Assembly: GCF_024713945.1 (NCBI RefSeq)
Contig: NW_027461519.1
Coordinates: forward strand, 248,001-312,000
Direction of reading: 5' to 3'
Length of the DNA: 64,000 nt
Origin: Dermatophagoides farinae
Lineage: Eukaryota; Arthropoda; Arachnida; Sarcoptiformes; Pyroglyphidae
Shown here piece after piece: positions 7,326 through 43,500 of this stretch. Made by a program: the position numbers and the translations under genes. The number at the start of each line of letters is the position of its first letter. Positions within the stretch are counted from its first letter, which is position 1. A model generated the notes under the pieces. That model had not been told where the DNA came from and searched no databases. It was given only the letters and a program-made list of their open reading frames with translations.

Positions 7326-8724
7326 CTAATCTTGCTGATCATATAATAATCCGAATATTTTAAACCAATACTTATATTGCAAAACAGGCTTGCTGAAATC
7401 ACATACCGTCGGCACAACAATCCCAGTGTTTGTTAAAAACGAAGCTCGAGTCATATGATCAATTTCGTTTGTTTTTAGGAAAGCATTTATCAAACCAGGG
7501 TTTACCAATTCGGTTGTGTCGTCGTAAACTATACGTGCGATCCATCTACAAAATATTTCATTACCAATGCATATATCGCTTTGTTCAATAACTTTATGAC
7601 CTTTCAAGCAAAGATTGATACGAACATCATCTACTTTGATTAAATAGCAGAGATCGTCCGCTGGGTCACGCGCTAATTTCGCTATATCTGTCGACACGAG
7701 TTTGTTGTACCAACAAACTAAATACTCAAAATCCATCCAGAGTGCGTCTGGAAAACCAACATCTTCATAAGTTTCTGCCACTTTTGTGAATTTTTCATTT
7801 TTTGTAATCAATTCCTGTGTATTCGTGTTCCAGTATGTAGTATCAACAAATTTTTTTGTGCTTTTTTTTTTGTCTTGGTTTCGCTCAAAAGATTTTCTGG
7901 GTTTATCATGCGCTAAAAACAAAAAATCACCATCCGCGTTGTTTTCTTCACTTATTGAATCTAATAATTGGTTATTGTGAAAACTTAATTCGCTGTAATT
8001 AAACTTATAAGCTAAAGAACAATGAATGTGCGCTGCCAGCCAAAGTTTTGGCGTGTTTTTTTGAACTGAATGATATATGAACGGGTCTCCAAAGTCTTTT
8101 GCTCGAATTTCATTTTTTAAAAATGGTTTTTTACCCAGTAATTTCCGTACAAAACCCTGATTTTGCAACAAAGCTGCAGGCCAATCGTGAGTACAAACGA
8201 TATCAATTGGGTATTTTATTTTATTGAGTATTTCTTTTAAACTTTCCATTCTGGACGAATACAACACGTTACTCGAGTAGTCATTAAAGGCAAAGAACGG
8301 CAACAACTTTTTGTTGAAATGATGCTTGATAAATATTCCGCTTTGGCCGAGAATTCTCAAATGTTTATATCTGATGATAGACATATTTCCAAAATAAAAA
8401 ATTTTGTTGCTGACAAATCCACCATACGGTAGATTTACATAATAATAAGCGTTTTCATGGTTTCCACCAATAAATAGAGTTAAACACTGAGGCTCGCGCT
8501 GGTTAGTGTAGAAATCGCGGAAGTCTCCTAACTTTAAATATTTTTTTGGAATTCTTATATATTTATAATCATCTTCGTTTCTTAGACATTGAATATCACC
8601 TAGCCAGATTAACAAATCTAAATTCTCGTCTGATACAGCGTCGTACGCATCAATTAAATCGCTGTGTAAACATCCTTGAATTCCTACCTAAATTTATATG
8701 GCATTTACACCTTACTCTGACCAT
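7326..8724 (-). CDS. DBR1: RNA lariat debranching enzyme, two exons with a 9-nt first exon
   Basis: Exon 1 (8716-8724) encodes MVR. A 28-nt intron (8688-8715, GTAAGG...TTTAG) precedes exon 2 (7326-8687), giving 456 residues. The joined start MVRVGIQGCLHSDLIDAYD matches the DBR1 first strand and metal site. The metallophosphoesterase ligands are all visible: C9, H11, D34 (WLGDIQC), the Asn-His of GGNHE, the His of CTHDWP, and both His of AAHIHC. The enzyme hydrolyses the 2'-5' bond of intron lariats. The exon-2 frame alone begins at a non-ATG codon and lacks the first metal ligands, which supports the splice model. The gene starts 16 nt after the stop of the upstream small gene on the same strand. 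Confidence 0.9.
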
Positions 8725-8740
8725 AAGTGATACTATCAAA

Positions 8741-9271
8741 TTACTTATTATTTTTTTTTTCAAGTGTCTTTATAAAGTTCTAAAAATAATAAATCTATTT
8801 TTACATACCTGTATTTTGACCAATTCAATTTCAGCGTTATGATTAAAAGAATTATTTGATAGCCATAAATTTTTTTTTCTTCTAAAGAACTTCGGCGGTT
8901 TTAACGATGATACGGTCTATCGCCACTTCTGCATCAAAAACTTACTATACTTTCATAGTTAGATCCTCTATTTTTAAACGGCATAGTTTCATAAAGAGCA
9001 TTATCAATTAACATTGGATCAACTACGCCTGCTAGTTGTCTAGTTTTTCTTGGTTGTTTATGTATAAATGTATCAGCTCGATCAACTTTTTTGGCATCAG
9101 ATATATTCAATATTAGTTCTTTTGTCAGCGAGAAGCTGTTGTTTTTTATAACTAGAACTAGCAATATTAGTACTTTATATATACTTAGGCAGATCATTAT
9201 AAGTATTAATTTTAATAATCTTGTGATGCAATCTATGAGCAAAAACTACTAACCGGTTTATTTACATCCAT
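8741..9271 (-). CDS. Small multi-exon gene, unknown function (about 129 residues)
   Basis: Two 29-nt introns are well supported, at 8917-8945 (GTAAGT...GATAG) and 8780-8808 (GTATGT...TTTAG). Removing them joins three exons (...-8946, 8916-8809, 8779-8741) in one frame ending at TAA 8741. The 5' part is less certain. The best model has exons 9271-9254, 9219-9185 and 9135-8946, with introns of 34 and 49 nt, the latter containing TACTAAT. That gives a 129-residue basic protein (MDVNKPIIKINTYNDLP...). No domain was recognised. A Lys/Arg-rich stretch (KPPKFFRRKKNLW) lies near residue 85. The stop lies 16 nt before the DBR1 start on the same strand. Confidence 0.5.
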
Positions 9272-10137: not shown

Positions 10138-10676
10138 ATGAAGCAACATGGTATGTTTAACTACTTAACTACCGTTTAGAAAAAAAAACTTCAAAGATAA
10201 CACTACCAAATAACGAAAATTCAGAAATCCCTTATAATCTTTCGAGCGATGATAAGAAAATAGTGACTCATTCGTTAATTATTAAAAAGTTGTTCAGAAA
10301 CAACACGCTTTGGGAAACAAAGGCATGTGTTGATTTTGCCTACAGTGATCAGTTTGACGATAATTATTTAAAAGATGTAGAAAAATTAAAGCAATTTTTA
10401 ATTGATTCAGTAACACCGGGATTTTTTCCCGATGAACTTGTTAGTAACACAAACATGCTCGAAGGACACAAAAAAGTCAATAAGCATAAGTTGACAATAA
10501 AAAAATACGCAGACAGTGAACAAACAGCCAATGAAGATGAAGATTCATCAGATAAAGAAATCGATAACCAGACTAACTACGGAGACGAAGATTACATAAT
10601 TCATCACGAATTGGAAGAAGACAAAGAAGATGATTTTCTAGACAAAAATGAAGTGTTAAATGATCAGGACAATTGA
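10138..10676 (+). CDS. RNA polymerase III subunit RPC31/RPC7-like, two exons
   Basis: Exon 1 is 10138-10150 (13 nt, MKQH plus one base). A 29-nt intron (10151-10179, GTATGT...TTTAG, containing CTTAAC) is followed by exon 2, 10180-10676. The product has 169 residues. Without this join the frame has no ATG near its start. The segment VDFAYSDQF (about residues 60-68) resembles the conserved DxERYSDKY of RPC31/RPC7. A basic middle leads to a strongly acidic C-terminus containing DEDYIIHHELEEDKEDDF, as in this family. RPC31 belongs to the Pol III subcomplex needed for tRNA and 5S transcription initiation. The protein is short for the family and the match is weak, so another acidic nuclear protein is possible. 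Confidence 0.5.
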
Positions 10677-10753
10677 AAGCTGGATTGAAATTTAATATAT
10701 TTTTTATAAATATTAAATTATTTTAGCTACAATTGGAATGCTTCTATCCATAA

Positions 10754-11626: not shown

Positions 11627-11681
11627 GGTTCGTAATAAATTTTTTGTGCACCAGTGCAAAATATAATTCACTCTACTTAAA

Positions 11682-12743: not shown

Positions 12744-13061
12744 AATCAAAAGTCCACGTAAAGGGTAATTTTTTGTTTTATATATATAAACTTTTTCTCG
12801 AAATTAGAAATTTCGACATTTCTTTATAGACTTTTAATTGATAAAAATTAGTTTTAAACAAGTCTAGTACATCATTTTCGTTTATCCACATTAGCTAATG
12901 AAACGTCTAGTGCTATTAATTCTTTTTGTCAAAATTTAGTTTACCGTCAAAATACGAATGGGGAGGATCGAACTCCCGACCTTCTGCGTGTGAAGCAGAC
13001 GTCATAGCCACTAGACCACATTCGCTCACAATTAATTTCTTTTCTCTCCTTCGATTAACAA
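12744..13061. other. Intergenic region holding tRNA-Val
   Basis: This spacer of 318 nt contains a TATATATATAAA run near 12781 and the minus-strand tRNA-Val at 12953-13025. No protein gene is supported. The tRNA 5' end lies only 36 nt upstream of the Hsp90 start codon. Confidence 0.6.
12953..13025 (-). tRNA. tRNA-Val(CAC)
   Basis: On the minus strand the anticodon stem TCTGC/GCAGA encloses TTCACAC, giving anticodon CAC. The T-loop is TTCGATC. The acceptor GCGAATG pairs with CATTCGT, again with a terminal G1-U72 wobble, and the discriminator is A. It is 73 nt and has no intron. Confidence 0.9.
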
Positions 13062-15158: not shown

Positions 15159-17043
15159 CTAGAATTAGAGTCACTCTCAAACTCAAAAGATGACGAGATA
15201 CACTCTTCACTTGAGAAAGAACTATCAAGCTCGTCGTACGACTCTTCACAGATTGCCTCTAAATCACTTTCTTCTATAAAACTGTCTTTATCAGAATCTT
15301 GTTCGTAATCAGATTCGGACATATTGTCTGAGACAATGAAATTGTCGTCCGAGAAATCCTCTTGCTCGTCCTGTTCCAGAATTGTTTGACTTGATGATCC
15401 TGATTCTACAAAATCATTTTTTTGTAAAGCGTTAGAAAAGTAATTAAACAAAAGCCCAATATTAATATGATCATTATTTGAGTTTTTTTCGTCTGTACTG
15501 TATAAGAACTTTGCAACCAGTTCTTCAATTTCTTTATGGTCATCTATTAAAAATTTAATTTGATCAATAATTTTGCTTACGACTGCACTAGTGCAATCTA
15601 ACCGATTGTTTGAAAACTTCAATGCATAGTTCAGTTCAACATGGCCATCAACTGTTACATAAAACAAAAAACCTTTATCAAATATTTTTTGAAGAACAAT
15701 CAAACATTGTAAGCCGAGCTTACAAGCGGGAAGCCAAAAATGCAAAGAAATTCCTTTATGATCCTCGACGTAGGTGTCATGTAAACTAGGAACAGTTTTA
15801 CCAGGTTTGCAAGAAATAGTGGAACTAAACCAACTTTCATTATTAATGTCTAACAACTCTAACTTCCAAAGAGCGTCCGGACTTTTTCCAGACAATAACA
15901 TTGCTGAGACATTACATAACGGGCATTTAATGTATTCAATGATTTTTCCATCTAAAGACTTTACGTAAGCGTCGAAGCACAAAACATGAAACTTGTGATT
16001 ACATGACTTTAATTGAAAACTCTGGTACTTTTCAAGCGAATCTAAACATATGACACAAGAATTATCTGCTATTGCGTCTCGGTTGTTTAATAGTATCACA
16101 TGATCAGCGAAAAATTTATCCCTCAAAATCTTTGAGTTTATTTTGTTAATCTTGTAAATCCTAATGTTGTCTGGAATAGTCAGTGTGCTACTTAAAGCTG
16201 AAGCTGAGTCGTAGCCTACATCGTGCAATTCCTTTACAGCCACCGGAATATAAACATTTTTATGAGCTTTAGATTTGTGAGATATGAGAAGTTTTTCTAT
16301 TAAAACATTATTTTGTGACGCTTCAGAAACACATATACTCAATCGTGACACAATGTCATAGCCGGTTTGTAACACCGGTGAATATGGCTGATAAACAAAA
16401 GTGTCGATGCTAACAGTCCCATCTTTGGCTTCGTAAGTAAAAGGACCTCGGTAACGCTCCATATAACGACGTTTTCGATCATATTTATCCTTGTCACCTA
16501 AAGGAACAATTTGCTGAAAAGCTGCATCATTCGAAATAAGCCATGAGGCAGGCACTTCTGTAAATTTTAAGTTACGCAGGTACATAGAAAACAAAGCTTC
16601 GATTCCCTTGTTGTCTTTTTCATCAAATCTACGCAAACATCAAAAATACTGTTTACTTACTTCTTCCAGCCGTTGACATCTCTATAGAACCAATAAAAAT
16701 ATGAAAACTGTTTCTGACCTTCTTTTAGCAAATGTTCTGGAATCAGCAAAAGATTTGTTTCCGCCCAATCTGTTACTGCGGTGATTTTCGCTAAACGCGT
16801 TCTTTTCGAACCAACAATTTTATACATCGCGTCAATGTTATCATCTGTAACTTCATTTGTTATTATTTCATATTCTGAATCACGAATTTTGAATTTCCAT
16901 TCATTGCGGCGGCCAATAGTTGAATTTTCGAGAGCAGAAAAAATACCTAAAATTGCAAATGGTTCCAAAATATGCCAATCAACTACTTTGTATTCCCAGA
17001 CACCATAGTATTTAGTATTCTGAGCGGTTATTGTGGCAACCAT
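15155..17043 (-). CDS. WWE-RING E3 ubiquitin ligase, two exons
   Basis: Exon 1 (16661-17043) and exon 2 (15155-16628) flank a 32-nt intron (16629-16660, GTAAGT...GCGTAG), giving 618 residues. The join rebuilds a WWE-type segment across the boundary: YFYWFYRDVNGWKK|FDEKDNKGIEALF (about residues 113-140). WWE domains bind poly-ADP-ribose-type ligands in some E3s. A RING-H2 finger follows at about residues 319-372 (CVICLD..., SCNHKFHVLC, IKCPLC). The last 100 residues are very acidic and Ser-rich. Domain order (WWE then RING) recalls Deltex-like ligases rather than RNF146. Substrates are unknown. Neither unspliced frame begins and ends sensibly alone, as exon 2 would start at a non-ATG codon. 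Confidence 0.8.
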
Positions 17044-17253
17044 AGAAATTTCACCATTTTATTTTATACTTTTAAGTTTTTTAACTCTAAAGAATAGGCG
17101 TTTTTTAAAAAATTATAATAAGGCTGTTAAATTTATCAAAACAGTTATAGCATGTATAAAAATAAAGTGCAATAAAAACAATTGATGGATTGTTGTTTCG
17201 AAACGTTTAAATATAACCATCTAATTTCGAATTGCACACAATACATAATTATT

Positions 17254-17335
17254 GGCAACTTGCCCGAGTGGTTAAGGGGGTAGACTAGAAATCTACTGGG
17301 CTTTGCCCGCACTGGTTCAAATCCAGTAGTTGTCG
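17254..17335 (+). tRNA. tRNA-Ser(AGA)
   Basis: The 82-nt sequence is a class II tRNA. The anticodon stem GTAGA/TCTAC encloses CTAGAAA, giving anticodon AGA. A long variable arm (GGGCTTTGCCC) follows, then the T arm CTGGTTCAAATCCAG. The acceptor GGCAACT pairs with AGTTGTC and the discriminator is G, as expected for serine. No intron is seen. Confidence 0.92.
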
Positions 17336-17389
17336 TTTTTAATTTATTCTAAAATATTTTACTAATATATAATAGAGCATTTTTAAAAA

Positions 17390-17460
17390 TGCACTTGCCG
17401 GGACTCGAACCCGGGCTTTAAGCTTGGAAGGCTCAAATCCTACCCTTGGACCACAAGTGC
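17390..17460 (-). tRNA. tRNA-Gly(TCC)
   Basis: On the minus strand the anticodon stem TGAGC/GCTTA encloses CTTCCAA, giving anticodon TCC. The T arm is CCGGGTTCGAGTCCCGG and the acceptor GCACTTG/CAAGTGC is fully paired. It is 71 nt and lies 54 nt from tRNA-Ser on the opposite strand. Confidence 0.92.
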
Positions 17461-17571
17461 AATAGTTATGGAAAATATTTTATCCATAATTATATCATAT
17501 ATTTTTGAAACTAATTATATAATATGTTTTAAATATTTTAGTTTAGAAAATTTCAATGTTTTCCACTCATC

Positions 17572-20500
17572 ATGGTTGAATTGGAAATAAAAAAAAAGAA
17601 GTCTTCATTCAATCTGTCATATTTTATAGCACCAACAAAAAGCAATAATGACGCGCTAGCTCATTCTGCTTTATTAATAAGCCAACAGGCAACTGACTTT
17701 AAGAAAAGTGCTTACATAAATAGACTAATGAATTATTCTTCAGATGTTATAACCAACAACAAAGGGTACATAGATAGGTTTAAATGTCTTTGGTGCGTAA
17801 GCGAAGATATACTCAATATTACATATACGAATTCTACTAAGGTTAAAACTTTTAATTTAAATCAAAATTCTACTCATTCAATAGTAACGGATATTCCCAT
17901 TGAAGTTTTATTTTTACCTTTTTTTAATTCAGAAAACTGTCTTTTAAGACACTATACAAAACAGTATTACGTAACAAACCCTACTGTTATTGAAGCGCTT
18001 GAAAGTTCTGGTGACATTCAAGATCCTGATTCAGCATTAAATCAAATCACAGTATATCGTTTAGTTTTATTTAGCTCGTACAATATTCAAGAATATGCGT
18101 TAGTTTTTGTACAATCGGAATGTCTACTTGTCGAGAAAATTCCTGAATTGTTTACAAGTTCTTTGTATGGTGAAATTTCAGACGTGATTTGTGACCCTAT
18201 AACAAATACAATTTATTTTTCAACCAAAAACAATTCAATTTATTCGTACTCAACGTGTTTAATTTCAAACTTAACATTAAAGCTTTCAACCAAAACTACA
18301 ATTAGCAACTCTTCTAATATCATTGAACTTATCAATGCATTGACAATTGAGCCAAAAAAAAATAATAGCTCAATTTTAGAATCTTTATATGATTTAATTT
18401 CTTCAAAAAACAAAGTCAGTCTAATTTCTAAGTCAGTGACTATAATTCACACTGAAAGTAACACAGATGGAAAATGCTCAATTAAACTTGGCTTCGACTG
18501 CATTAACTCCATTCTCTTTGCGTTGGTTGATTATAAAGATGTTTTTGCTTACAAAATACCTTCTTATGAGTATCATTCTACTAATACTAATACTATTTCA
18601 CTTAGCTGCAAAGTTTCTAACTTCATTTGTTTAACATCTCTTAGTTTAGATAATTTATTATCATTTTTACCGGCAATAGAAAGTAAATACCACGAAGTCT
18701 CAGGTAAAAAAAATAATAAAATCTTTCAACACAGATTTAACCGCGCTCAAAATCTGGCGTTGTCAAGCGATATATATATTAACGATATATGTTTAAACAC
18801 TGAAACTTTAGTTTTAGTGCTTTCTGATTGCAGTATGATTAAAATTTCGCTTAATTCGCCCGTTTTTAATAACAAAAGATCGGTTAAACAATATACATCA
18901 TCTTTATTTCAGTCTACAAACAGGATTTTTTCTTTGCCAAACGCTTCTTACCTTTACAAACCTATAAATATTGCTACGACAAAAGAAGTTAACAGGAAGA
19001 ATGAGACTATTTCAGCTGATGTGACATATTACCCGCTTAGTCATACAGATTCAATGAAACTTAAATTTTTTAACTTTAAAAAATATTCTATTACTATTAC
19101 TGATGTAGTCTATGCACCGGAAAGTACAATAAAAAATTTAAATAAGGTTATAAAACCTAACTATTTAATCGATGAATATTATTTTGCTGTCAATATATCC
19201 AACTCTACGTCTTTAGGCATGATAAGGGTATTTTTAGATTCAAGTTATAACACAGTCTATCACTGCGTATCTGATCAATTTTCGTCTTCGACTATAACTT
19301 TTTATTTAATGAACAAAATTTACTCAAGCGGAATTTTTTTACCCAGTTGTTTGAAGTATTCAACTATTTTCATAGTTAACCAATCGTCAGTTAAAAATTT
19401 AATTGATAACGTTGATCTGAACGGATCACCCAATAAATTTTTAACAGATGACTTTAATGAGGTAAACTCAGCTTCACAGGATACATTATTTTTAACCACA
19501 GGCGTTAACAAATATACTTTATGGTTATCTCCATACTTTAAAATACTTAAATTATATTTAAAGTCAAGCAATCACCACATTTTCTATAAACACAAGCTTT
19601 TAAAAAGGTTAATAGCTAGTGAAGACCAAGTAATTGAATCATATACTAAATCTATCTTCTTCAGCAGCAATAGTATTTTAGTTAAATTATTGCCAATGTC
19701 ATATTCGAACATAAGTGACATAAAGTTAGAATTTAAATCTGCAGAAGAAATGATTGTAAAATCCATGAAGACATGGATTGATATATCCTGGTCTGAAATA
19801 AACACATTAATTACCAATCCAAATTATTTCAATGATTTAAAAACTATGTATGAATTCATCATTGGTATACAGCAAAAATCTGGTAAAAAGTTTAAAGGTA
19901 TTCTACTCTGGATACTATACCAGTTGGAAGCAGAATCAAAGACTTCTTATAAGATTGAGAATCAAGCTACAGAAGCACCTTCAAAAGTTTCTGATTTGAC
20001 TAATCAATCTAACACTGATATTAATAATGATCTAGTACTAAATACACTTGATTGTTTCAATGATTTAGAATCGCAACATTGGATTTCTTTAAGTTCTATT
20101 CCTTACACACTGACGAATTTAATAATTTGTTTACTAGTAAACAGAATTAAGCGACATCAACTTTCTATCAGCACTTCAAAACGTGTTCATAAAGATTTTT
20201 TTTCTTCTTCGTTGAACGAAGGATTAGTTAGATTGACTTATACTTTAACTTTATTGAATTATTTGGTAAAAAAGGACTTTGTTCTAACAAACATATTAAC
20301 TGACTTGTTTAGTTCTATTACAACCCCTGTCAATCACCTACCAATTTTGATTCCACATTTAATAATGAAGCCAGACGACATGAATGCCCCACTAGTTCTA
20401 TGCAACTTGCAACCAAGTGACACTATTAATCCAAACTTTTTAATTTCTAAAAAAATTCACACCAATCAACAAAATTCCAACCAGCTTACACACTGTTTCC

Positions 20501-23500
20501 AGATATCCATGGAAACGTTACATAATATGGTATTTTGGTACGACTCGTTTGAAGAAGTTATATTAGAATTAAAAACATTTTTTTATAAATCCACTAGCGT
20601 AGACAACAAATCTCATGATTTAAACTCTAAACTAACTAAATTTGATGAAATAATTAATAAGTGCAAAGTAGGAAAACAGCTTTCTCAGTTCTTAATAATA
20701 TTTAACACAGGTATCACGAAATACATTCAGTTCAACAAGTATCCATACTATCTTCCTGAAAGCGTCAGCTCGAAATTAATGAATTCGAATTTCTGCGAAT
20801 TGTTTACTGAAGCTCTCACTAACGTTGATTTTTTTATTAACTTATACAAATTTACTGACATCAAGAACATTGTATCCTCTGCTTCTTTACTTCGCCATTG
20901 TCCTTTGCTATTCGTGAAAAATAATGAAATATTATTTGAAATCACTTGGTCAGCATCATTGGAACCGATTGATTCTTTGTTAGAGCTTGTAAAGCAGTCA
21001 ACTTACAATAGATTCTGCATTTTGGCAAACGAAGTAAACTTTATCAACAACAATGTTGAAACAATGCAAATTGATTCACTGACATTAATGAAAAATACTT
21101 GGAGAAAATGGCTTATTAATTGTCCTGAAACCGATTTACTTTTATTTTTACCTCTACCTGCTGAGTTCAGTAACATGACAAACTACTTGTCATACACCCC
21201 TAACGAGCAAGCCAAACTTGAAAACAATCATTTTTTGAAACAATGCTATGTTCATGCTATCAATTGTGTTAACAAAATAATTAACATTTCGACGGACTCT
21301 GGTGTTGTGAAAAATAATTTATTTTCAGATTTGATTGATAAGTTCTTTGTGTTAAAAATGTTTTCAATTGTCAAATATGCATACGTAGCATGGTACTACT
21401 TGATATTGCGACAGAAAGATAACGAAAAAATTGAAAAGTTGTTTACTTCTACTTTAGATTCACGTCATGCTATCCTTTTTGATCCAATAAAAAATCATCT
21501 GGGCTTAATGCTAAGCAAATTTTCCAACGTTTTAACTGAGACTTCCGGAGTGATTGGACAAACAGATTTCTTTAATTTCATTACTATTCTGACTGATCTT
21601 TGCTCAATCGACACAACGAATTTGTTTTCCGATCAAATACATTCCAGCTTTGACTCATATTACAAGAGCATTTCAGATGAAAATACTTCCGCAATTCATT
21701 TAATTGCTTTTTATTGCTTAGATTGGTTAATTCTTTTTAATGGAAAAACATTTTTAAATAATAAGCTGCTAAAAAAAATATCTCCAACAGCTCTCACACT
21801 TTGGGCACAGAATAAATGTGACTTGTATAACGGCAATTACCATGGAACATTAAAAATATGGCTTGAACTAGGACTTACAACGTATCCACTTAACTCGTTG
21901 TCCAAGATCATTTCGATCCAACCCAAATGGCTTTCTACGACAAACACGTTTAGAAACTTTAACGTTAACAGCTCTCCATCTCTAGATTCTTCTGACGTGT
22001 TCAACAAGACTGATTATCATTTCTTTGTTAGCAGAGGCATTAATCTCGATAAAGAAAAGTCAGAAGGCAACTTATTTTTCCAGGACTCTAGAAATTGTGA
22101 ATCTATTAAACTTTTGTCACACTTAATTAGGAGTTTTTTTTCTAAAACCGATCTAAACTTGTTTTCTCGACTGGATTACATTTTAGAAGGACTATTGCTT
22201 TGTGACTTAAGTAAAACAACGGATTCTAATACCCAAACCACAGATAAAATAGTACAGTACAACGATAAAAATAGCTTAGATATAGATAAAATGAGTGCGA
22301 ACGAGTATTTCATGAAGATACTGACCAAGCAGCACGCTATTACTTCTTTACCAAACAAAATTCAAGCTGAAACGAGGCTGAAACAGCAAGAAAAGAAACT
22401 ACTGAATAATAAATCAAATATTTTAAAAAAAATTGATAACGTGTTGGACGAGACCGATGCATCATCAGGAATAATCATTAAAACTTCAAGAATGGACACC
22501 AAAGAAATTTCTGAGTTGCTGGGTGACAATTACGTCATCGAAAAGATTGTCAACACTATAGAACTAACGGACTCAGGTGAAAACTTTGACTGTTCTAGCC
22601 CTGCTTATTGGAAAAATGAATATTATACCACTTTAACGCAGCATTTAGCTTTGCGTGACTTGTTTGAAAATATTCTTTTTGTTTCGCAAATTGAACATGT
22701 CAAACCAATTTTGTATAAGTTGATTTCTACTTTCGAATCAATCGACAAAGATTCTATTTACTCGTTGCTAGCTCAAATCAACACGGCTTCGTCTAGCACG
22801 GTAATCCATCTTATTGAACTTATAATTCAAATCGCTTACAGGTATTTTGAAAATCCGAGCCAGTTGTACTTGACGCTGTGCAATTCTTTCGGTTACATTT
22901 TGCACTTTTCACCCATTCGATGTTTTTCTATTTTATTCATGTCCAACTTTCTTCCTCGAGAAGTAGTTGTTGAAGGCGCTGATAAATTTTTGAATGGGCT
23001 CAAAATAGATGTTTCTAAATCAATTAAAACTTGTTCTGTCGACGAATGTCAAATTTTTTCAGTTCAGTTGATGTTTGCAAATATCCATTATTACTCTTTT
23101 CTCGTTCGTACAAATTACTTCAAATATTCGAACTGTACAGACTTAGTATTTTCATTTCAGCGTGCGGCTTATGCGAATTGTTCTCTCCACCACGAAGAAG
23201 CGGTTTCACTTCCGATCACGATCGAACCTAAAAAGTCGTATCTAGGACTAAGCCAAGCAACACTGCTTTATACTTTTTTCGCCCTACTGCAAGGAAACGA
23301 AATAGAAAAAGAAAAGCTCTACGACGAACAAATTCTTACTCTGCAATCACTCGACACCAACTACAAGCAATTGTACGAATCTTTGTTTAGCTCAGGTACA
23401 TTACTCGACGTCACGTTGGTTTCCGAAGCTTCTCAATTTAAAGAGGCCAATCTGTTATTGGCGTTCTCTGAGCCCTACTTGTACGATATTTCTGATCTCT

Positions 23501-24375
23501 TATCTAGCTATCCGACAGCTACTAACAGAAAGCGCGGTTTAGACAAGTTCGCTCATACTGATTCCACCTCTTCCATGAACATCAATTACATTTCACTATT
23601 CAAGATAATCAGGTCTGCCTTTACATTCATGAGAAACGTTTTGTACTACGTCCACTGCGTTGCTATTGTCGCAACAGATGGCGATAAAATAAATCCTAGA
23701 CCAGAAATGACTGAGAATGACATTAAATTCATCAAGTTTTATTTGGAAAGTTTCAAATGGTTCCAGTTCAGCACTCAATCGATTGAAAAACTCGTCTTTT
23801 TGTTAGTACAGGCTTACAGTTTTACTTTCTCGAACATTTGTCAGAAATTACTTCCTTGTTTCGAATTCGTCGTTAACAATTATCACGCGTCTAAATTCAG
23901 TGTTGCCACCACTACCAAAATATTCGAATCTATCAGTAAACAGATTTCGTATGAGTTCATCGAAATATCAAACAAAATGCAGCAATTGGCTCTGACGTCG
24001 AGAACTGGTCAATCTACTGACGTTTTGTTTCAAAAGCCTTATTCTTATACCACAGATATTCTTGGATCTGAATTCGTTTTCAACAAGTTATGCACTAAAA
24101 CAGAAGGAATCCTTTCTTATTCTAATAAAAAGATTGACGAGACACTTAACAAACTAGACATGTCTCAATACTCTGTAACAAACATTAAAGATAATCTAAA
24201 AGCTGTGTTTCAATCCGCAAACCATTTAATCGATATTTTGACTCTTGTTTACAACGAACAAGACTTAGCTAAATTTGACTCTGAAGAGTTATCTAAGCAG
24301 TTCCAACATAGCAAAGTATTGTTCCAAAACCTTTTAGAGAAATACCAAATTTACAAAAAATTCTTTGCTGATTAG
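17572..24375 (+). CDS. Very large Nup155/Nup170-like nucleoporin
   Basis: The frame encodes 2267 residues, much longer than the usual 1300-1500 for Nup155/Nup170. The N-terminal 600 residues look like the Nup155 beta-propeller: FKCLWCVSEDILNITY near residue 68, a blade EISDVICDPITNTIYFSTKNNSIYSY near 203-230, a second blade LGFDCINSILFALVDYKDVFAYKI near 307, and IYSSGIFL near 583, which parallels the YSKGILL segment of Nup155. The remaining roughly 1600 residues are helical, as in scaffold nucleoporins. Such proteins anchor the inner ring of the nuclear pore. There are no FG repeats or membrane spans. The assignment is by fold pattern, and another large propeller-solenoid scaffold is the alternative. 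Confidence 0.6.
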   Translation: MVELEIKKKKSSFNLSYFIAPTKSNNDALAHSALLISQQATDFKKSAYINRLMNYSSDVITNNKGYIDRFKCLWCVSEDILNITYTNSTKVKTFNLNQNSTHSIVTDIPIEVLFLPFFNSENCLLRHYTKQYYVTNPTVIEALESSGDIQDPDSALNQITVYRLVLFSSYNIQEYALVFVQSECLLVEKIPELFTSSLYGEISDVICDPITNTIYFSTKNNSIYSYSTCLISNLTLKLSTKTTISNSSNIIELINALTIEPKKNNSSILESLYDLISSKNKVSLISKSVTIIHTESNTDGKCSIKLGFDCINSILFALVDYKDVFAYKIPSYEYHSTNTNTISLSCKVSNFICLTSLSLDNLLSFLPAIESKYHEVSGKKNNKIFQHRFNRAQNLALSSDIYINDICLNTETLVLVLSDCSMIKISLNSPVFNNKRSVKQYTSSLFQSTNRIFSLPNASYLYKPINIATTKEVNRKNETISADVTYYPLSHTDSMKLKFFNFKKYSITITDVVYAPESTIKNLNKVIKPNYLIDEYYFAVNISNSTSLGMIRVFLDSSYNTVYHCVSDQFSSSTITFYLMNKIYSSGIFLPSCLKYSTIFIVNQSSVKNLIDNVDLNGSPNKFLTDDFNEVNSASQDTLFLTTGVNKYTLWLSPYFKILKLYLKSSNHHIFYKHKLLKRLIASEDQVIESYTKSIFFSSNSILVKLLPMSYSNISDIKLEFKSAEEMIVKSMKTWIDISWSEINTLITNPNYFNDLKTMYEFIIGIQQKSGKKFKGILLWILYQLEAESKTSYKIENQATEAPSKVSDLTNQSNTDINNDLVLNTLDCFNDLESQHWISLSSIPYTLTNLIICLLVNRIKRHQLSISTSKRVHKDFFSSSLNEGLVRLTYTLTLLNYLVKKDFVLTNILTDLFSSITTPVNHLPILIPHLIMKPDDMNAPLVLCNLQPSDTINPNFLISKKIHTNQQNSNQLTHCFQISMETLHNMVFWYDSFEEVILELKTFFYKSTSVDNKSHDLNSKLTKFDEIINKCKVGKQLSQFLIIFNTGITKYIQFNKYPYYLPESVSSKLMNSNFCELFTEALTNVDFFINLYKFTDIKNIVSSASLLRHCPLLFVKNNEILFEITWSASLEPIDSLLELVKQSTYNRFCILANEVNFINNNVETMQIDSLTLMKNTWRKWLINCPETDLLLFLPLPAEFSNMTNYLSYTPNEQAKLENNHFLKQCYVHAINCVNKIINISTDSGVVKNNLFSDLIDKFFVLKMFSIVKYAYVAWYYLILRQKDNEKIEKLFTSTLDSRHAILFDPIKNHLGLMLSKFSNVLTETSGVIGQTDFFNFITILTDLCSIDTTNLFSDQIHSSFDSYYKSISDENTSAIHLIAFYCLDWLILFNGKTFLNNKLLKKISPTALTLWAQNKCDLYNGNYHGTLKIWLELGLTTYPLNSLSKIISIQPKWLSTTNTFRNFNVNSSPSLDSSDVFNKTDYHFFVSRGINLDKEKSEGNLFFQDSRNCESIKLLSHLIRSFFSKTDLNLFSRLDYILEGLLLCDLSKTTDSNTQTTDKIVQYNDKNSLDIDKMSANEYFMKILTKQHAITSLPNKIQAETRLKQQEKKLLNNKSNILKKIDNVLDETDASSGIIIKTSRMDTKEISELLGDNYVIEKIVNTIELTDSGENFDCSSPAYWKNEYYTTLTQHLALRDLFENILFVSQIEHVKPILYKLISTFESIDKDSIYSLLAQINTASSSTVIHLIELIIQIAYRYFENPSQLYLTLCNSFGYILHFSPIRCFSILFMSNFLPREVVVEGADKFLNGLKIDVSKSIKTCSVDECQIFSVQLMFANIHYYSFLVRTNYFKYSNCTDLVFSFQRAAYANCSLHHEEAVSLPITIEPKKSYLGLSQATLLYTFFALLQGNEIEKEKLYDEQILTLQSLDTNYKQLYESLFSSGTLLDVTLVSEASQFKEANLLLAFSEPYLYDISDLLSSYPTATNRKRGLDKFAHTDSTSSMNINYISLFKIIRSAFTFMRNVLYYVHCVAIVATDGDKINPRPEMTENDIKFIKFYLESFKWFQFSTQSIEKLVFLLVQAYSFTFSNICQKLLPCFEFVVNNYHASKFSVATTTKIFESISKQISYEFIEISNKMQQLALTSRTGQSTDVLFQKPYSYTTDILGSEFVFNKLCTKTEGILSYSNKKIDETLNKLDMSQYSVTNIKDNLKAVFQSANHLIDILTLVYNEQDLAKFDSEELSKQFQHSKVLFQNLLEKYQIYKKFFAD

Positions 24376-29585: not shown

Positions 29586-29593
29586 AAGAAAGT

Positions 29594-31626: not shown

Positions 31627-33325
31627 TCAATGATGTTTTAGAGATTTGTAGCTATGCTTATATGTGATTTCGTTCGTTTCTGCCATGTTTTGCCCGGCTA
31701 GTTCAAGAGAACGCCCAAATTCGTTTCTGCCAAGTATAATTTGCACAACAATAGTTCTTCCTGGATTTTGGTCTATGAAAGTAAAAGTTTCCAATAGTTC
31801 TTCGTAGTTACGAACTAAATGTCCTTTTTCTCCGCCAAAAACACGAGGAATTTCTGCGTAATCCCAATGCGGTATATCGTTGTAAATATTATCGTCAATA
31901 GCTCGTTCAATGGTGTACCCATCGTTATCAATAATGAAAACGATGATGTCAAGGTTATTAGAAATATAACGACTAAGATCTTGCGCAGTGACTTGGAAGG
32001 ATCCGTCGCCTATAAATAACACAGTTCGTTTACCATTTTTCAAAGTTTTGTTAGCAATTCCTATACCTAGCGTTGCTCCTATTGTGTAACCAATACTTCC
32101 ATAAAACAACTGTGTGATCAACTCATTTCCGCTATTAAAAAATAAATCGCCCATTGCAAACATACTACTTCCTGTTTCTGCTACAACAGTTAGATTTTTT
32201 CCTAACCAGTTATTAATAGCTTGAAAAAATCCGTTCATAGATAAGATTTGCTTAAGATTTTTAGTAGCTTCTATGGGTAAGTTCTGGGGTAAGATACCAG
32301 ACTGTTTAGGGTAATCTGCTATCTGTTTTTTTTCGACTTTGGTTATTAAGCTTTCTAACACATTTTTGATATAAACGTTTGTAAAAATTTGATCGTCTTT
32401 AGCTACATAATCATCATGAATAATAAGCGTTTTTTCTTTATATAGTGAAGCTGTAAAAACCTTTTGTATTGAAATCGGTGAGCATTTCTCCCAAAATGAC
32501 AATTAAATCAGAATTTTCTAAATAATTTTCTACTTCATCCGTTGTCGTTCCGATGGAATACATTCCAATAAATTGTGGATGATCTTCTCCAATTATTCCT
32601 TTTGACATCATCATAGTTGTGTATGGTAATCCCGTGATTTCAAGCAATTTTTTAAATTGGTCTACAATTTGATATCTTTTTAATAATACCCCAGGCACTA
32701 AGACTGCGCGTTTAGCTTCAGAAATATTTTGACAAATAAATTTCGTAACTGATTCTAAGGTTGTCTTATCACTTGAATTAAACAGAGACAGATTCGAATT
32801 AAGTTTGATACTAGGAAGCTTTTTAATTGGCATGTCAGCAGGAATTACAAGATAAGCTGGTTTTTTTTCTTTTAAGCAAGTAGAAATACATCTGTCAATT
32901 TGTGCTTGTGCATTGTTTATGTCGAATATTATTTCAGCTGCGCAGCTAATTTCGCTGTACATTTTAAAAGGAATATGATAATCGTAAAACGTATGATGCA
33001 ACATTCTTTGATCTCTCCAATCTTGAGTCTTTGGAGCTCCAGTAATTTGTAATACTGGTACCCGCTCTGCTAAACTACCTGCAACAGCATTTAAGACGGA
33101 CAATTCCCCAACTGCGTAAGTTGTAATAACAACTCCTAAACCTTTAATTCTCGCATAACCATCTGCTGCATATCCAGCGTTTAACTCATTACAACAGCCA
33201 ATATACTCTACCTCCGAGTCGACTAAAACATCTAAAAGTTCTAAGTTGTAATCACCGGGTACTCCAAACACTTGTTCAACCCCGACTTCTTTTAACTTTG
33301 CAAATAGGTATTCTGAAAGCAACAT
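31627..33325 (-). CDS. PDC: Pyruvate decarboxylase, frame broken by one extra base
   Basis: The reading frame is split in two overlapping halves. A single-base skip at the five-T run (minus strand; plus positions 32455-32459) joins them into about 565 residues, the normal family length (yeast Pdc1 is 563). The alignment runs through DFNTKGF|TASLYKEKT without a gap. Catalytic features are present: ThDP-contacting E47 (CCNELNAGYAADGYAR), H110-H111 (RMLHHTFYDY), the ThDP motif GDGSFQVTAQDLSRYISNN, and GYTIE. The enzyme makes acetaldehyde and CO2 from pyruvate for ethanol fermentation. The break could be a homopolymer sequencing error, a real inactivating indel, programmed frameshifting, or a 10-nt GTTTTTACAG intron. 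It is divergent with the 192-residue unknown gene. Confidence 0.85.
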
Positions 33326-33363
33326 TTTTTATAGATTGAACATATTATGTAATAAAAATTATT

Positions 33364-36361: not shown

Positions 36362-37750
36362 TCACATTACGGAATCGAAATTTAATTTAATACAACAGCA
36401 ATCTAATATGAAAAACAAATAGTGCATTAATTACAGAAAATTCATTGCTTAAGAAGCCTAAATATGAAATATTAGATTCTACAAAAGATAACGATCAAAA
36501 CGGAGCTGATGTGCAAAAAATAACTGCAAAACAAATAAAAACAAACTAGTGTTTTTGGTTGTTTTTCTGATCTTATAATTGATGCGTGAATTAAGTATAA
36601 TTACTGCTTGAACACAAGTAGACTGCAACAAACTTGTTATATTAATATGAGTTTGAGTTGCCTATGTCATATAAAATTATTGAATTGCGGAGCGAACTTC
36701 AATAACGTTTCATGAAGACTAATTTTAACATTAATATGTTGATTAACGTGTAAATTTAAGATGAATTTCTCCAGTTGAGATATTCGTAAAAAGCGGACTT
36801 TGAAATAATTATTTACGCCAATCGATTTGCATAGCCCAATAGCAAACACGATTAAATCATGAAAACAAATTATTGACGAAGCATTGACGTACAATGCTAT
36901 ATTTACAAACCTCAAATATTTCTAGATTGCCAGTTTGTTAATTTTTTGATCATACATTGGTGGGTATTGTTATCATAAATTTTCCTGAATTAATGATACA
37001 TAGTACTAAGCGATTTTTACACTTTTTAAAAATTAAAGATCCACATTGGAATAACTTTTATTCTAATTTTCCAAAATGTTAGATTTTTAATAACATTATA
37101 AATCTTAACCTGAATAGGTTTTTTGTGCTGAAATTAAGCTGATGCCGTTTGTAAAGTGAGATTTATATGCTTATTCGCACAAATTTTCTTACTAAAGTAC
37201 AAAACTCTATGAGTACAAGTGTTTAAAACGATATGACTGTAACTCAACTAGCTACAATTAGATTAAAATGATTAAGATATTTACTGAGTCTAATGAAGTA
37301 TAAATAAAAACAAGAGAAACTATTTCACATCAAACTGAAGTAGTAGGAAAGAGAATCAATGACGTTTTTAATGAGTAATAAACTAAAATGAGCTATTGTT
37401 ACGATGAAGAATTTTTGGTAATGTGTGGTCTAAGTTTTTTAAAATTTTTATCAGTTCTGAAAATAAAATTTAACTCAAAGACTGCTTAAAAGCAATTGTT
37501 CTGAATGAAGTGTGTAGATGGAACAGTAGGCATGAGTTATCCTGACGGAATTTTATGAACAGAGCGTTTCTCAATTTTCTGTTTGTTTATATTTAAAATA
37601 AATCTAGTCTAATATTAATTCCAAGAACCTGACAAATATTGTAAAAATTATAATCTAAACTATAAGCACAGCTTATAGTAATTTTAAGTTAATAATAAAC
37701 AGCCTATTTTAGCGTTGATAACGTTAATATTGTTCGTTATAAAATATTTT
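36362..37750. other. Long gene-poor AT-rich region (1.39 kb)
   Basis: This is the longest stretch without a confident gene in the window. At 36423-36549 one plus-strand frame reads SALITENSLLKKPKYEILD... to a TAG and has coding-like composition. It could be a spliced 3' exon of the GMC gene (65-nt intron 36358-36422). The rest shows no frame, tRNA or obvious repeat. A minus-strand open stretch at 36667-36915 looks like chance. Confidence 0.45.
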
Positions 37751-38396
37751 TTATTTTTCATTTTTTTTAGCTTGAAGTACTTCTTGCTGATCCAAGGATC
37801 TTTCGTCTTCAGGAACTAATTCAGCAGCAGTCTAAAATGGGGATGGTAGATATACTTACGTCGTGTAATAAGATAGTTTTTAGGATTTGATCGTTTTCAC
37901 TTTGAAAAGCGTAGCTTAGCGGAGATTTGTTGAAGAAGTTTTTTTGTAACACTGAGAGTGGGCTAAGAAATTTGATAACTTAAAAAACTTACATGCTGGG
38001 CATATTGCATAAAACGCGTACGACTTCGACACATTCGTTTTGCACTGCCCAGTGCAGCGGAGTGTTTCCAAGGTTATTTGGAATATGCGGAATATTTAAT
38101 TCTGTAATAAGAAAGTTGACGAGTTTCTCGTTGCCACTAGCTGCGGCGAAATGAAGTGCATTGTTGCCATTGATGTCTTTTTGTAATAAAGACTCCAGCG
38201 TAAAAGGCGACTTTCCGTCTACTAGCTCGCATGCAAAGTCTTCGGGCAAGACGCCATTTTTAACGCAAGTTATAATTTCTTGTACTTCTTCTAAATTACC
38301 ATGACCACAATGGTAATGAAACTCATCTATTAATGTCCACTCGTCTTCTAGATCTGGATTTATTGCTCCTATGCTTTCGAGCGGCCTCAATACCAT
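37751..38396 (-). CDS. Ankyrin-repeat protein, three exons with two mini-introns
   Basis: Exons are 38396-37993, 37962-37860 and 37831-37751. They are separated by introns of 30 nt (37963-37992, GTAAGT...TCTTAG) and 28 nt (37832-37859, GTAAGT...TTTTAG). The product is 195 residues. At least three ankyrin repeats are seen: NGNNALHFAAASGNEKLVNFLI, LGNTPLHWAVQNECVEVVRVL, and NKSPLSYAFQSENDQILKTILLHD, the last created by splicing. The C-terminus is acidic then lysine-rich (TAAELVPEDERSLDQQ). Such small ankyrin proteins usually act as binding adaptors, and yeast Yar1-like ribosome chaperones are one parallel. No partner can be named from context. Confidence 0.75.
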
Positions 38397-38473: not shown

Positions 38474-40042
38474 ATGGTTTCGAAATGTTCAATCTGCAAG
38501 CCTACAGATTATTGTACTCATTCATCTTGTAAGTGATTAAATTACTAAGTTTTAGTTTTGATCTCAATCCGAGCTGCTGCTAGCGCCAAATTTACTTCCA
38601 TTTCTAACTATGTTAGGATGAAACCGTACATTGCACCGGAGTACGAACACAATTTGCTGAAGAACACCTACAAACCACTTGGTTCTACTAAATTAGAGGT
38701 CGTCATTGACAAGTTCTTGTGGAATCCTGTCGCGACGATGTTACCGCGCTGGCTGCATCCTAATGTGCTAACTTTGATTGCTTTCTTATTTAGCGTATTA
38801 GGAGCATTCTTTCCGACTTTTCTTTTCAATTATGACGGAAAAAGCGTATCTCCTAGATGCATTTATTTGATATCCGCTATTTCGATTTTCCTTTACCAGC
38901 TTCTTGACGCCCTCGACGGAAAACAAGCTAGAAATTTGAAAATTGCCTCTTCTGCTGGCCAACTGTTTGATCATGGTTGCGATGCAATTACCACTTTTTA
39001 CATGTTATATACCGCATTGTCTGCTAGCCAATTTGGTTTCAGTTCTAATTGTGTGTTTATTATTACTGCGATTACTTATCATTTATTTATATGTAGTTGG
39101 TACGAATACGAATTTGAGAAATTTAAAACAAACATAGCTTCTACTGTTGGTATAACGGAGGCCCAATTACTACTGGTACTTCTAAACTTAATCTGTTTTG
39201 CTCGTCCTGGTATTTTCGCTTTTTGTCTAGTAGATATCATGCCAAAAATTCTAGCTAATGTTTTGAATTTCCCTCCCTTCAACATTAATTTAACGACAAT
39301 GGTATTCTACATTGTTTTTGCCTACGTTTACTATCTAAGTGGTACTGACTTATTAAACATTTTATCTACCTCTAAATTCAAAAATCCTAAAGAATCTGCA
39401 AGTATTTTTGTTACCCTATTCATTCACTTGTTTTGCCAATTCCACTATTTCTGGAACGGTACTATCGAACGCCACATGTTTGGTGTGACATTTATTGTTG
39501 CCATTTTCGGAGCTAACATCTGTTGGAGATTTATGCTTGCATCCGTTGCAAAATCTAAACCAATGTTAATTGACGCGCATACTGTTTTCTTCTATTTAGT
39601 CGGTATTATATTGGCTTTGCCACTCAGGAATAACATATGGGAAACTATCATTATTTACACGATGTGTGTTTATACCTTTATTTACATGCTTGGTTTCGTT
39701 TATGTTAACCTTAAGATGATGAAGAGAGTACTGAACATTTCTTTTTTTGTCGTTCCTCCTGCTAATATTCAAATAACTCCAGACAATAATGAAGCTAAAA
39801 AAAAGTCTGAAACAAAAACCGAAAAAAAAACAGTTAGTCTCGAACAAATAAACGACCCTCAACTTGCTTCAATTGTCAATAAGCTTGAGCTAATTAACTT
39901 GGAAAGTTTTAACACTAAGGTCGTCGATAGTGAAAATGATGATCATAACGTTGAAAGTGACATTGAAGAATGCAAGAATGATAATGACATGACTAAACCT
40001 CTGTTAAATAGAAAAAATAACCAATCGTCATTAAATCAGTGA
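38474..40042 (+). CDS. Choline/ethanolamine phosphotransferase (CDP-alcohol type)
   Basis: The 513-residue model joins exon 1 (38474-38528) to exon 2 (38556-40042) over a 27-nt intron (38529-38555, GTAAGT...TTTTAG with TACTAAG). The alternative is to start at the internal ATG of MKPYIAPEYEHN (38618), where family homology begins. The CDP-alcohol phosphotransferase motif DGKQARNLKIASSAGQLFDHGCD is complete, with its Asp residues. About eight to ten membrane segments follow, matching ER-membrane CEPT/EPT proteins that make phosphatidylcholine or phosphatidylethanolamine from diacylglycerol. The C-terminal 110 residues are a charged cytosolic tail. The short exon-1 peptide is Cys-rich (SKCSICKPTDYCTHSS) and could instead be an upstream ORF. 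Confidence 0.85.
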
Positions 40043-40582
40043 TATGAAACCAAATATCTCTTTTAATGCTTTTATTTTCAGCTCTGATGGGGAAATGATA
40101 ATTTCTACAATGAAATCTTAAAAATTAATTGCTTTTTACATTGGATGAATATTGAATACCTTATTATTTTTTTGATCATATTTAACTCGTTCATTTTCTA
40201 ATATAAAACTAGTCAAACTAATTTTTGGTAAGAATTCTGTTGTATTTTGTGGAATCAATCCATTTGATCGGCATCGAAAGTAAATACTCATCAACAATAA
40301 TCTGACTCGATTTATTGGCTTAGGGAACTGTTATCTATGCACTTTTTGTTGTTTTATCAGAAAGCATAATATGAAGCAAATAATGATATATGAATTTGTC
40401 AGTTCACACACTTGTCAGCTTTTTTCCTATTTGAATTAACAAAAGTAAGATTTTTAAGTTGGCTTTAGAAGGACTTATATTAGCTAGTTAAGATTATTTA
40501 TTCTGGTAGGATAATCTAAGTAACACATATTATTAAATTTAAGGCTATGTATAAGACTCAAAACTAACAAAACAGCAACTTG
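40043..40582. other. Intergenic AT-rich region (540 nt)
   Basis: No coding frame, tRNA or repeat is seen. It should include the terminator of the phosphotransferase gene and the promoter of the giant surface-protein gene, which run in the same direction. Confidence 0.5.
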
Positions 40583-43500
40583 ATGATAAAAATGGTAAGA
40601 CTATTAAATATATTAGCTCTCTCATTTATTGCTCCGTTAACATATTCGTTTGAATGTGTTAATAATAGTGACTGTAGTGTATTTGAAGCATGTACGAATA
40701 ATATTTGCGTTGGCTTGATACCTGATATACATGACGAAAAATTGATTAGGTGTGCTGACGGATATAAGTGCAAAATTGATAAAGAAATTCCAGGGTATGG
40801 AGTAAATGAAAAATTTAAGATTATGGCAATCTTGCCGGATCAACATTGTGGAACTTCAGATGTAGTTTCGAAAGATTGTAAGTTATTATTCATTAAAGAT
40901 TATAGATGAATTATTTTCTGGAAAGCATATTTGGTCTTGTAAATCAGGTAATAGTGATTATTGTGTTATAGATCTTGGTGTGGGTATTAGAAAAGATAAA
41001 TCAATAGCAGTTCAAGGTTTGAGGTTGTGTGGATGTGTCGAATCAGATAAGAATGACTTTGAAAGTGTTTGTTCTTCTTATAAAAACTTCGTTGTACCTG
41101 TTGGTAAAATTGGAGTGCAGGAATGCTTGAATAATTCACACTGTTTACATAAAACGTTCGCTTATTGTATGAACAATAAGTGTGCTAAATTTTCTGGTAT
41201 TGCAGCTACAGCTGGAGCTAAAATTTATCAATGTCTAGTAGGAAAAAATTGTACCATAAATAATATCGCAACTAAAACTATTAATGAAACCATGAAAATT
41301 CTGCCTGTTGCTCAAAAAGTTAAATGTGGGGTAGATATGGCTTTGGATCCTGATTATTTTGACTCAGCCGTATTGCCTTGCGTTTTAGATTTAAATAATG
41401 ATGGAAAATGTGATATAAATTTAGGGATGGTTAAAACAATGAACAGCAATAGATTATGTGGTTGTTCAGGAAGTGATAGAGGCGGAAACGGAAGACCGTG
41501 TGACGAACCTGCCGATTTTGACATAGACTTAGGGTTTGTTAAAACTGTTGAATGCAATATTGATGAAGATTGTAAATCTGGACTATGTGCCGCAAACCAA
41601 TGTATATCTGATACAGTGCCTCCAACGTTTGTTCGAATGATTCCTGAAAATAATACAATTGTTATACCACCAATTTTAGAAGTATCGTTAACCTTTAGTG
41701 AAAATATTATGTATCCACCTAACAGTGAAAACTTCCCGAGAGTTTTAATAAAAAATATGGATCGAAACTTAGAATTTGAAATTTTTATAGCTGATCCTAC
41801 TAAAGTAGATCCAGCGTCAACGTTTTACAGAACAAGAATTGAAGGAACAGATCTTATTATTAATCCAGATATTAGATTGAGTACATTTCCTGAAGGAAAG
41901 TATATTGTAATTTTTGAAGGTGGAATAGTAATGGATATGGATGGAAATTTAGTTGAAGGAAAGAAAGACTTATCATTTACAATTCTTAGTGATGCTGGTT
42001 GCCCTTTTTTCGGTATAACTGGACTTTCAATAACTCCGATTAATGGAAACGGTATTTATAAAAGGCATGATTCTTATAATGACCGTCCAACATGGATATT
42101 AAAGACATTAAATGGAAATTTATTTTTAGAGCTCTACTTTTCTAAACAAAAAGATAAAAACAACAAAAATCAGCAAGGAGTTTGGGTCATTAGTCCATTA
42201 GGCGCAAGAGAAGTAAAGTTCTACGCAATGTTTGAAGTTTCCAATTCTCAGATTGCAAATTTCGTTAGACCTATTAGTGGTAGTTGGCAAGTCTACAGCG
42301 AAGGAGCCTGGACATTACATGAAAATGTAATTTTATCCTGTTTATCAACTGTTGATCTGACTGCACCCGTACTAATATCAGTAAGTTTTAGTTCGTTATA
42401 TTGTCTTAGATTTTACCTGAAAATGGGCAAAAGCAAGTGGATAGAGATGACATTGTTTTGAATTTTAATGAACCTATAAATTACGGTCACTGGAGTTTAT
42501 TTACTTTGTATAATTTAGATGACAAAACAATAGAGTTCGAATTAGATCCTCAAAATGAAGATGATCGCAAACTTTTAAAATTATCAAATGATTCCAAAAC
42601 TTTAACAATTAAATTAAAAAAAAAATTAGAGCTCGGAAAGGCATATAGTTTTAGTTTCGACACTGGCGTTTTAACAGACTATTCATATAATCCCGTTGGT
42701 CCAATCGAACCTGGCTCGTATACATTTACTACTTTAGGTCTTAAATGCAAAAATATTACAGACGTATTGAATAATATAGTTGTAATAGAAAATTCAAAAG
42801 AAAAATATAATCATCTAGATGAAATCGTTATAGCTTGTGAAAAAGGATTTACTCCACGATTTCCACCTTCAAATTTGGACTATGATAGAATCAATTTTTC
42901 GACGAACTTAAATGATTATACCAACGTAACAGTCTTGTGTAAAGATGGTGAATGGGTAACACAAGGATTAAAATGTATGCAAAATTGTTCATTATCTCAG
43001 ATAGACGAAATATTACGTTTTGACCAAAATAAAACTGAATTAATCAATACTATTGATGATGAAAATGCAATTATAAGGTCTAAAAATACAAGTGTAAAAA
43101 ATGAAGAAGAACAAAAATCTTTGGTTCTTGATATAGAAAAAAATCAAGTGCCAAAAAGTCACAACAAACTTAAAAATACTAGTATGATGAAAAGTGCTAA
43201 TAGACGGCATTCAAGAAGTTTATCAACGTCTGAATATAAACGCCCAAAGATTAAATATGATGCAGATAACCACAAATTTCTAATCAATATTAACAATCCA
43301 AGTTATCTGATATTAGTTAAAAGTTGGGCGATGGATGACGAACGTAAAATTTTTAATAATGATATGAAATCAAGTTTAATAAATGATGAAATTACGTTCA
43401 AACACGGAAGTTCTCTTTCTATTCAATGCTCTAAAAATTCAAGGGTATTACAAGGAATAACAAATGAGTCTACAATGGTGTGTCATAATGGATCATGGAC

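Follow-up and report, generated by a model that had tools for sequence, protein, structure and literature searches.

Tiny introns of 28–30 nucleotides in apparent apicomplexan DNA within a genome assembly of the dust mite Dermatophagoides farinae

A stretch of DNA assembled as part of the dust mite Dermatophagoides farinae raises two questions, namely whether ten GT...AG segments of 27–32 nucleotides (nt) in it are introns, and whose introns they are. The window, meaning the whole stretch analysed (64,000 nt; assembly GCF_024713945.1, contig NW_027461519.1, here C16:248001-312000), has a GC content of 33%. A sequence-only reading of it had listed nine introns as supported by frame continuity and a tenth as likely, and had proposed a lineage with a length-restricted spliceosome. 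Our analysis leads with high confidence to a different description: the window comes from the nuclear genome of an apicomplexan that was present in the sequenced mites, a gregarine being the most likely group, and its spliceosomal introns peak sharply at 28–30 nt with a thin tail to about 50 nt.

The genome that holds the window comprises 62,435,336 bases in 22 contigs. Ten large contigs (C1–C10, 3.3–9.2 Mb each) sum to 58,827,282 bases, and eleven small ones (C11–C21, 90–645 kb each) sum to 3,593,788 bases. C22 has 14,266 bases, 10,000 of which were read; its frames were taken as animal mitochondrial proteins under code 5, and it matches a bacterial-type large-subunit ribosomal RNA model.

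The 28–30 nt intron class

The short introns were counted in 199 kb of C11–C21 (about 5.5% of these contigs, 1,500 bases of it N), drawn from 38 sources: the window, six single-hit loci, seven stretches of 10 kb, 20 contig ends and four AP2 loci. Without regard to reading frame, GTA[AT]GT...TAG occurs 27 times at a spacing of 28–30 nt, against a mean of 6.5 and a maximum of 12 at other three-base spacings, over 98 bins; mite contigs, sampled over 139 kb, give 2 versus 3.1. The excess is present in the window by itself (7 pairs versus a mean of 1.95 and a background maximum of 5, Poisson 0.004) and in the 135 kb of sibling scaffolds without it (20 pairs versus 4.58). Furthermore, GTAAGT is the most enriched hexamer 28–30 nt upstream of TAG ends (18 versus 3.3, among hexamers seen at least six times).

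When at least 60 open codons were required on both sides, GTA[AT]GT donors yielded 10 calls at 27–32 nt. A scrambled motif yielded none, and neither did the mite contigs, whose calls all lay at 40 nt and above. With GTAAG or GTATG as donor and 60 codons, 10 calls were obtained at 27–32 nt against a decoy mean of 0.5 (six decoy sets), and mite contigs gave one call, at 32 nt, against a decoy mean of 0.33; over 15–79 nt the calls peaked at 28 nt (four), 29 nt (three) and 30 nt (two). At 30 codons this screen was noisy (66 calls at 15–79 nt versus a decoy mean of 66.8), with 19 calls versus 5.83 at 27–32 nt. Our figures come from an automatic list of 17 introns, a hand-picked list of 20 having been set aside; their lengths are 28 nt (five), 29 nt (six), 30 nt (four) and 32 nt (two), in a screen limited to 27–32 nt that itself required the donor and the TAG end. 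The class was also found on C11, C12, C14, C18, C19 and C21, and it carries the extended 5' GTAAGT consensus and the GT...AG ends by which GT-AG spliceosomal introns are recognised. The tiny introns are supported as a real class, and with them the sharp peak of GT-AG introns in this lineage, which lies at 28–30 nt.

In the window, all ten listed segments measure 27–32 nt, start with GTAAG or GTATG as reported, and end in TAG (10 of 10). With the adjoining main exon, they are as follows.

7326..8687, minus strand: main exon of a homologue of the lariat-debranching enzyme DBR1 (phmmer against PDB 5uki, E 6e-30; Metallophos domain)
8688..8715, minus strand: 28-nt intron of the DBR1-like gene, after codon 3; the spliced start MVR|VGIQGCLH fits DBR1
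8780..8808, minus strand: 29-nt intron candidate, plausible only; the consensus fits, and the product stops within about 12 codons either way
8917..8945, minus strand: 29-nt intron, 100 open codons before and 48 after; the unspliced frame stops after 3; no homologue found
10151..10179, plus strand: 29-nt intron candidate, plausible only, with about 5 codons upstream
16629..16660, minus strand: 32-nt intron of a RING-finger gene, 132 and 490 open codons; the unspliced frame stops after 1 codon
37832..37859, minus strand: 28-nt intron candidate, plausible only, attaching a 26-codon tail
37963..37992, minus strand: 30-nt intron within ankyrin repeats, 134 and 46 open codons
38529..38555, plus strand: 27-nt intron candidate, plausible only, near the start of a CDP-alcohol phosphatidyltransferase gene, with a short upstream exon
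40878..40905, plus strand: 28-nt intron upstream of a Big_5-domain frame, 103 and 517 open codons (frames alone)
42381..42409, plus strand: 29-nt intron that links two long open frames where Big_5 starts, 505 and 2444 open codons

The claim that nine of these are firm by frame continuity stands for five, which pass a screen that demands 30 or more open codons to either side of the junction once spliced and a broken frame when unspliced, while a sixth (8688–8715) is carried by homology; the remaining three are plausible only. The same grade applies to 38529–38555, which had been called likely and whose 27 nt are a multiple of three. Splicing of 8688–8715 moves the start of the Metallophos match from profile position 8 to position 2 and raises the score from 27.7 to 28.9 bits. 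The junction of 37963–37992, at residue 134.7, is spanned by an Ank_3 match (110–136) and an Ank_5 match (104–153). The Big_5 domain at 42410 begins at profile position 11, and the exon upstream of it ends in DLTAPVLIS, which supplies the missing start. The junction of 16629–16660 (residue 133) lies inside a weak WWE match (16.7 bits, cut-off 21.1). Another window candidate, the 34 nt at 36922–36955, was not accepted.

Homology also crosses junctions on other contigs. A prenyltransferase gene on C18 contains three introns, one each of 28, 29 and 30 nt. Once spliced, its product is matched by the Prenyltransferase toroid model PF00432 over positions 4–304 of 304 (182 bits). In PDB the product aligns best with an FTase/GGTase beta chain, and this alignment (query 38–340) extends through all three junctions. 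On C21, a Tau95 domain (97.6 bits, positions 2–144 of 144) spans the splice junction.

These data bear on the explanation that the segments are never spliced and are either chance GT...AG strings or sequencing insertions and deletions (indels) that break frames. Frame breaks of the indel kind do occur in this DNA, in a pyruvate decarboxylase gene near 32438–32502 and in a chaperonin gene on C20. Chance, however, does not account for the frame-free spacing peak (27 versus 6.5) headed by GTAAGT, homologous domains cross several junctions with 28–30 extra bases between their halves, and insertions of 28–30 bp with fixed ends are not what indels are expected to leave; we therefore consider this explanation very improbable. 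As for the two breaks themselves, the pyruvate decarboxylase gene (window 31627–33328, minus strand) is read in two frames that overlap near 32438–32502. An intron that would mend it was sought and not found, and no 28-nt intron is there; a 10-nt GT..AG string in the break, GTTTTTACAG, was set aside, an indel being more likely than an intron. The chaperonin gene (C20:129443-130979) is split between two frames overlapping by 5 bases, so that no intron fits, and the break is probably an assembly indel.

Source of the eleven small contigs

The assembly GCA_024713945.1 is described as 21 scaffolds anchored into 10 pseudochromosomes, from which microbial DNA had been stripped by BLAST against microbial RefSeq (PMC11074847). 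C1–C10 add up to 58.83 Mb, which comes near the 58.78 Mb given for another D. farinae assembly, whose material was bodies and eggs, the eggs serving to lower contamination, and C11–C21 are therefore left over.

Marker genes occur twice in the genome. The PROCN domain of PRP8 is found once in C1–C10 (C7, 788 bits) and once in C11–C21 (C14, 530 bits, in an open frame of 2,341 aa). There are six MCM loci in either set. When neighbouring matches are grouped by position, C1–C10 hold nine Cpn60/TCP1 genes plus a relative within a long frame, and C11–C21 hold eight (one spread over two frames); proteasome subunit loci number 14 and 11, respectively. All four genome matches to AP2-domain regulators are on C11, C14, C16 and C19 (three above cut-off), and the sole match to alveolin (IMCp) repeats, above cut-off, is on C14. 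A C16 kinase with an EF-hand part (locus L008) has CDPK-type proteins as its five best PDB matches, with full-length alignment in four of the five. AP2 regulators, alveolins and CDPKs in combination point to an apicomplexan. Searches with 14-3-3 and proteasome sequences against PDB yielded no placement of the organism.

Could C11–C21 be unplaced mite sequence, and the introns the mite's own? These contigs belong to an assembly published as mite, and their base composition overlaps that of the mite contigs. Against this, the MCM, Cpn60/TCP1, proteasome and PRP8 sets of C1–C10 are present again in C11–C21, AP2 and alveolin matches are confined to the latter, the large contigs already reach the size of the egg-using assembly, and mite contigs give no GTA[AT]GT calls at 27–32 nt with at least 60 codons and one, at 32 nt, with the shorter donors. 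On the duplicated marker sets and the mite-contig intron screens, the mite was rejected as owner of the introns, and we hold that origin to be extremely improbable. C11–C21 instead look like non-mite, apicomplexan-like DNA inside the mite assembly, a source that the sequence-only reading had not recognised, nor had it recognised the published gregarine intron class. A published assembly, at chromosome level and of a mite that is a major source of allergens, would thus carry about 3.6 Mb of apparent parasite DNA in 11 small scaffolds, so that genes of the parasite may pass for the mite's own, and dust mites in culture may be infected.

Several systems with comparable introns are known. In the lobster gregarine Porospora cf. 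gigantea, a class of 25–30 bp with a mode of 28 bp is reported to make up 71–72% of introns, and an A lying 6 bp before the acceptor is strongly conserved (PMC9250747). As described there, Porospora resembles the present case in having a short class beside other introns, a compact, gene-dense genome and an arthropod host, and the 17 introns here fit its class by length (25–30 bp, mode 28). Unlike in Porospora, none of the 17 introns here has A at -6, and the A-rich positions are -10 to -12; moreover, Porospora has a GC content of 54% and about 9 Mb, whereas the window has 33% GC and C11–C21 hold 3.6 Mb. Babesia microti is likewise an apicomplexan with uniform tiny introns and a small genome, and differs in its introns of 18–21 bp, its 6.5 Mb and its about 3,500 polypeptides (PMC8446681). 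The introns of mikrocytids (16–17 nt) and of chlorarachniophyte nucleomorphs (18–21 bp) also keep to a narrow range in reduced genomes, but they are shorter than those here and belong to unrelated lineages (PMC10245619). Since classes of 25–30 bp, 18–21 bp and 16–17 nt are published, the kind is known, and what is found here is a variant in another organism. The expectation that gene finders with normal intron minima would miss such introns draws support from a parallel case, the predictor used for Porospora having been set to allow introns longer than 10 bp (PMC9250747).

By analogy, a gregarine is the group we infer as most likely for the parasite. In an earlier survey, 12 assemblies, every one of them an arthropod transcriptome, proved to contain gregarine contamination (the words mite and Dermatophagoides do not appear in its main text), and a gregarine 18S sequence is reported from a Caparinia mite sample (PMC6321676). 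Among the titles and abstract openings listed for D. farinae or Dermatophagoides with gregarines or apicomplexans, none reports such a parasite genome. The parasite might instead be another apicomplexan, for example a piroplasm, a cryptosporidian or, among the coccidians, an adeleid; B. microti, too, has tiny introns (18–21 bp; PMC8446681). We regard this as unlikely, given the arthropod host, the likeness of the 28-nt class to that described for Porospora and the contamination known from the 12 arthropod transcriptome assemblies, all three of them leads rather than tests.

Splice signals, splicing genes and longer introns

In the 17 automatically called introns, A fills 31 of 51 cells at positions -10 to -12 from the 3' end (shuffle P 5e-5); with four listed window introns added, the best three positions hold 35 of 63 (P 1.5e-4). 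The zone is A-rich without a sharp motif and is followed by a T-rich stretch to -4; the screen imposed neither. At -6, -7, -8 and -9, A occurs in 0, 5, 1 and 4 of the 17 introns. We infer that this A-rich zone is the branch region, which would put the branch at about position 17–21 of a 28–30 nt intron. Splicing genes are present in C11–C21, with PRP8 on C14 and the DBR1 homologue in the window.

The proposed mechanism, by which the segments would be removed from RNA, is that of an ordinary GT-AG spliceosome working by intron definition. U1 and then U6 would read the near-perfect GTAAGT, U2 would select an adenine 10–12 nt before the intron end, the short T-rich stretch and TAG would come next, and DBR1 would open the lariat. 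Intron length would be set by the minimum that the spliceosome tolerates sterically, together with deletion pressure in a compact genome.

A number of results weigh against the description of these segments as spliceosomal introns of a gregarine. Loose GT..[CT]AG segments of 27–32 nt show no excess over decoy (18 versus 22 at 60 codons, 47 versus 54 at 45), so that the signal depends on the extended donor. Seven spliced products were scanned; Pfam gave no match to the one from C19, and its matches to the C14 ankyrin product all lie away from the junction. Independent support is lacking for four of the listed introns (8780–8808, 10151–10179, 37832–37859 and 38529–38555). Lastly, U2 (three loci), U5 (one) and U6 (two) genes were found only on mite contigs C6, C2, C3 and C10, and none of the three was detected on C11–C21 (U1 and U4 were not searched genome-wide). 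No U6 core with at most three mismatches is on C11–C21, and Rfam searches of the window and six sibling loci at lax thresholds returned seven transfer RNAs (tRNAs), two sub-threshold matches and no small nuclear RNA (snRNA); the snRNA family searches score only the best first-look candidates, and a diverged snRNA could escape them. As U2, U5 and U6 went undetected although the genome appears near complete, the parasite snRNAs may be missing or divergent, or else lie in unassembled parts.

Longer introns probably exist beside the 28–30 nt peak. With GTA[AT]GT donors and a minimum of 45 codons to either side, 14 calls fell at 33–99 nt versus 3 for the decoy. In three of them the donor already belongs to an accepted 28-nt intron, and two more only add a second acceptor to another donor, which leaves nine separate donors; six of these have calls of 35–49 nt whose unspliced frames soon stop, and a thin tail at these lengths is therefore likely. 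The six candidates, all with GTAAGT or GTATGT donors, are the following.

L008:1332-1377, candidate longer intron
L033:1867-1902, candidate longer intron
L025:5596-5630, candidate longer intron
L054:1805-1853, candidate longer intron
L045:522-567, candidate longer intron
L044:1085-1133, candidate longer intron

They include one of 36 nt adjoining the alveolin frame and one of 46 nt upstream of the CDPK frame. At 60 codons there were 1, 2 and 3 calls at 33–39, 40–59 and 60–99 nt versus 0, 0 and 1 for the decoy; above 100 nt, real and decoy counts (8 and 23 versus 5 and 15) are too close to decide. The 33–99 nt counts, set against the decoy, speak against a peak with no longer class beside it. 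The proposal of a length-restricted spliceosome is not established by the peak: some introns of 35–49 nt are probably real, and deletion pressure in a compact genome would give the same peak.

Genome size and other features

Marker completeness of C11–C21 is 26 of 29 (MCM 6 of 6, chaperonin 8 of 8, proteasome 11 of 14, PRP8 1 of 1), a count that takes the eight Cpn60/TCP1 loci as the eight CCT subunits, these subunits and the six MCMs not being individually assigned. This suggests a nearly complete apicomplexan genome in C11–C21, and the binomial interval of 0.73–0.98 would put the whole parasite genome at 3.7–4.9 Mb. A 2021 review names B. microti, at 6.5 Mb, as the apicomplexan with the smallest genome (PMC8446681). 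The window holds an estimated 27 or so genes (30 frames of at least 150 aa), which extrapolates to about 1,500 genes, and the 17 automatic calls in 199 kb extrapolate to about 300 introns of 27–32 nt. It is conceivable, and we put it forward tentatively, that the dust-mite apicomplexan has a near-complete genome here of about 3.6–4.9 Mb, which would make it the smallest of its phylum, and that it has about 1,500 genes, tiny introns by the few hundred that peak at 28–30 nt and branch 10–12 nt from their ends, and snRNAs too diverged for standard U2, U5 and U6 models. Such an apparent extreme of apicomplexan genome reduction, with introns that are mostly tiny, would let the lower intron limit of the spliceosome and the retention of standard snRNAs be tested.

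Short CCCTAAA repeats open C14 and C16, among 20 of the 22 contig ends of C11–C21 examined (one being N), and the first 1,500 bases of C18 are N. In the window, the protein predicted from 40866–49744 (plus strand) is very large and combines Big_5, Sushi and Notch (LNR) domains, and the 2,277 aa of the open frame at 17542–24375 (plus strand) match nothing in Pfam at E 0.001. At 58262–64000 (plus strand), a protein resembling starch synthase and at least 1,912 aa long runs off the window end. Five tRNA genes lie within 1364–1538, 12953–13025 and 17253–17461, four of them as two close convergent pairs.

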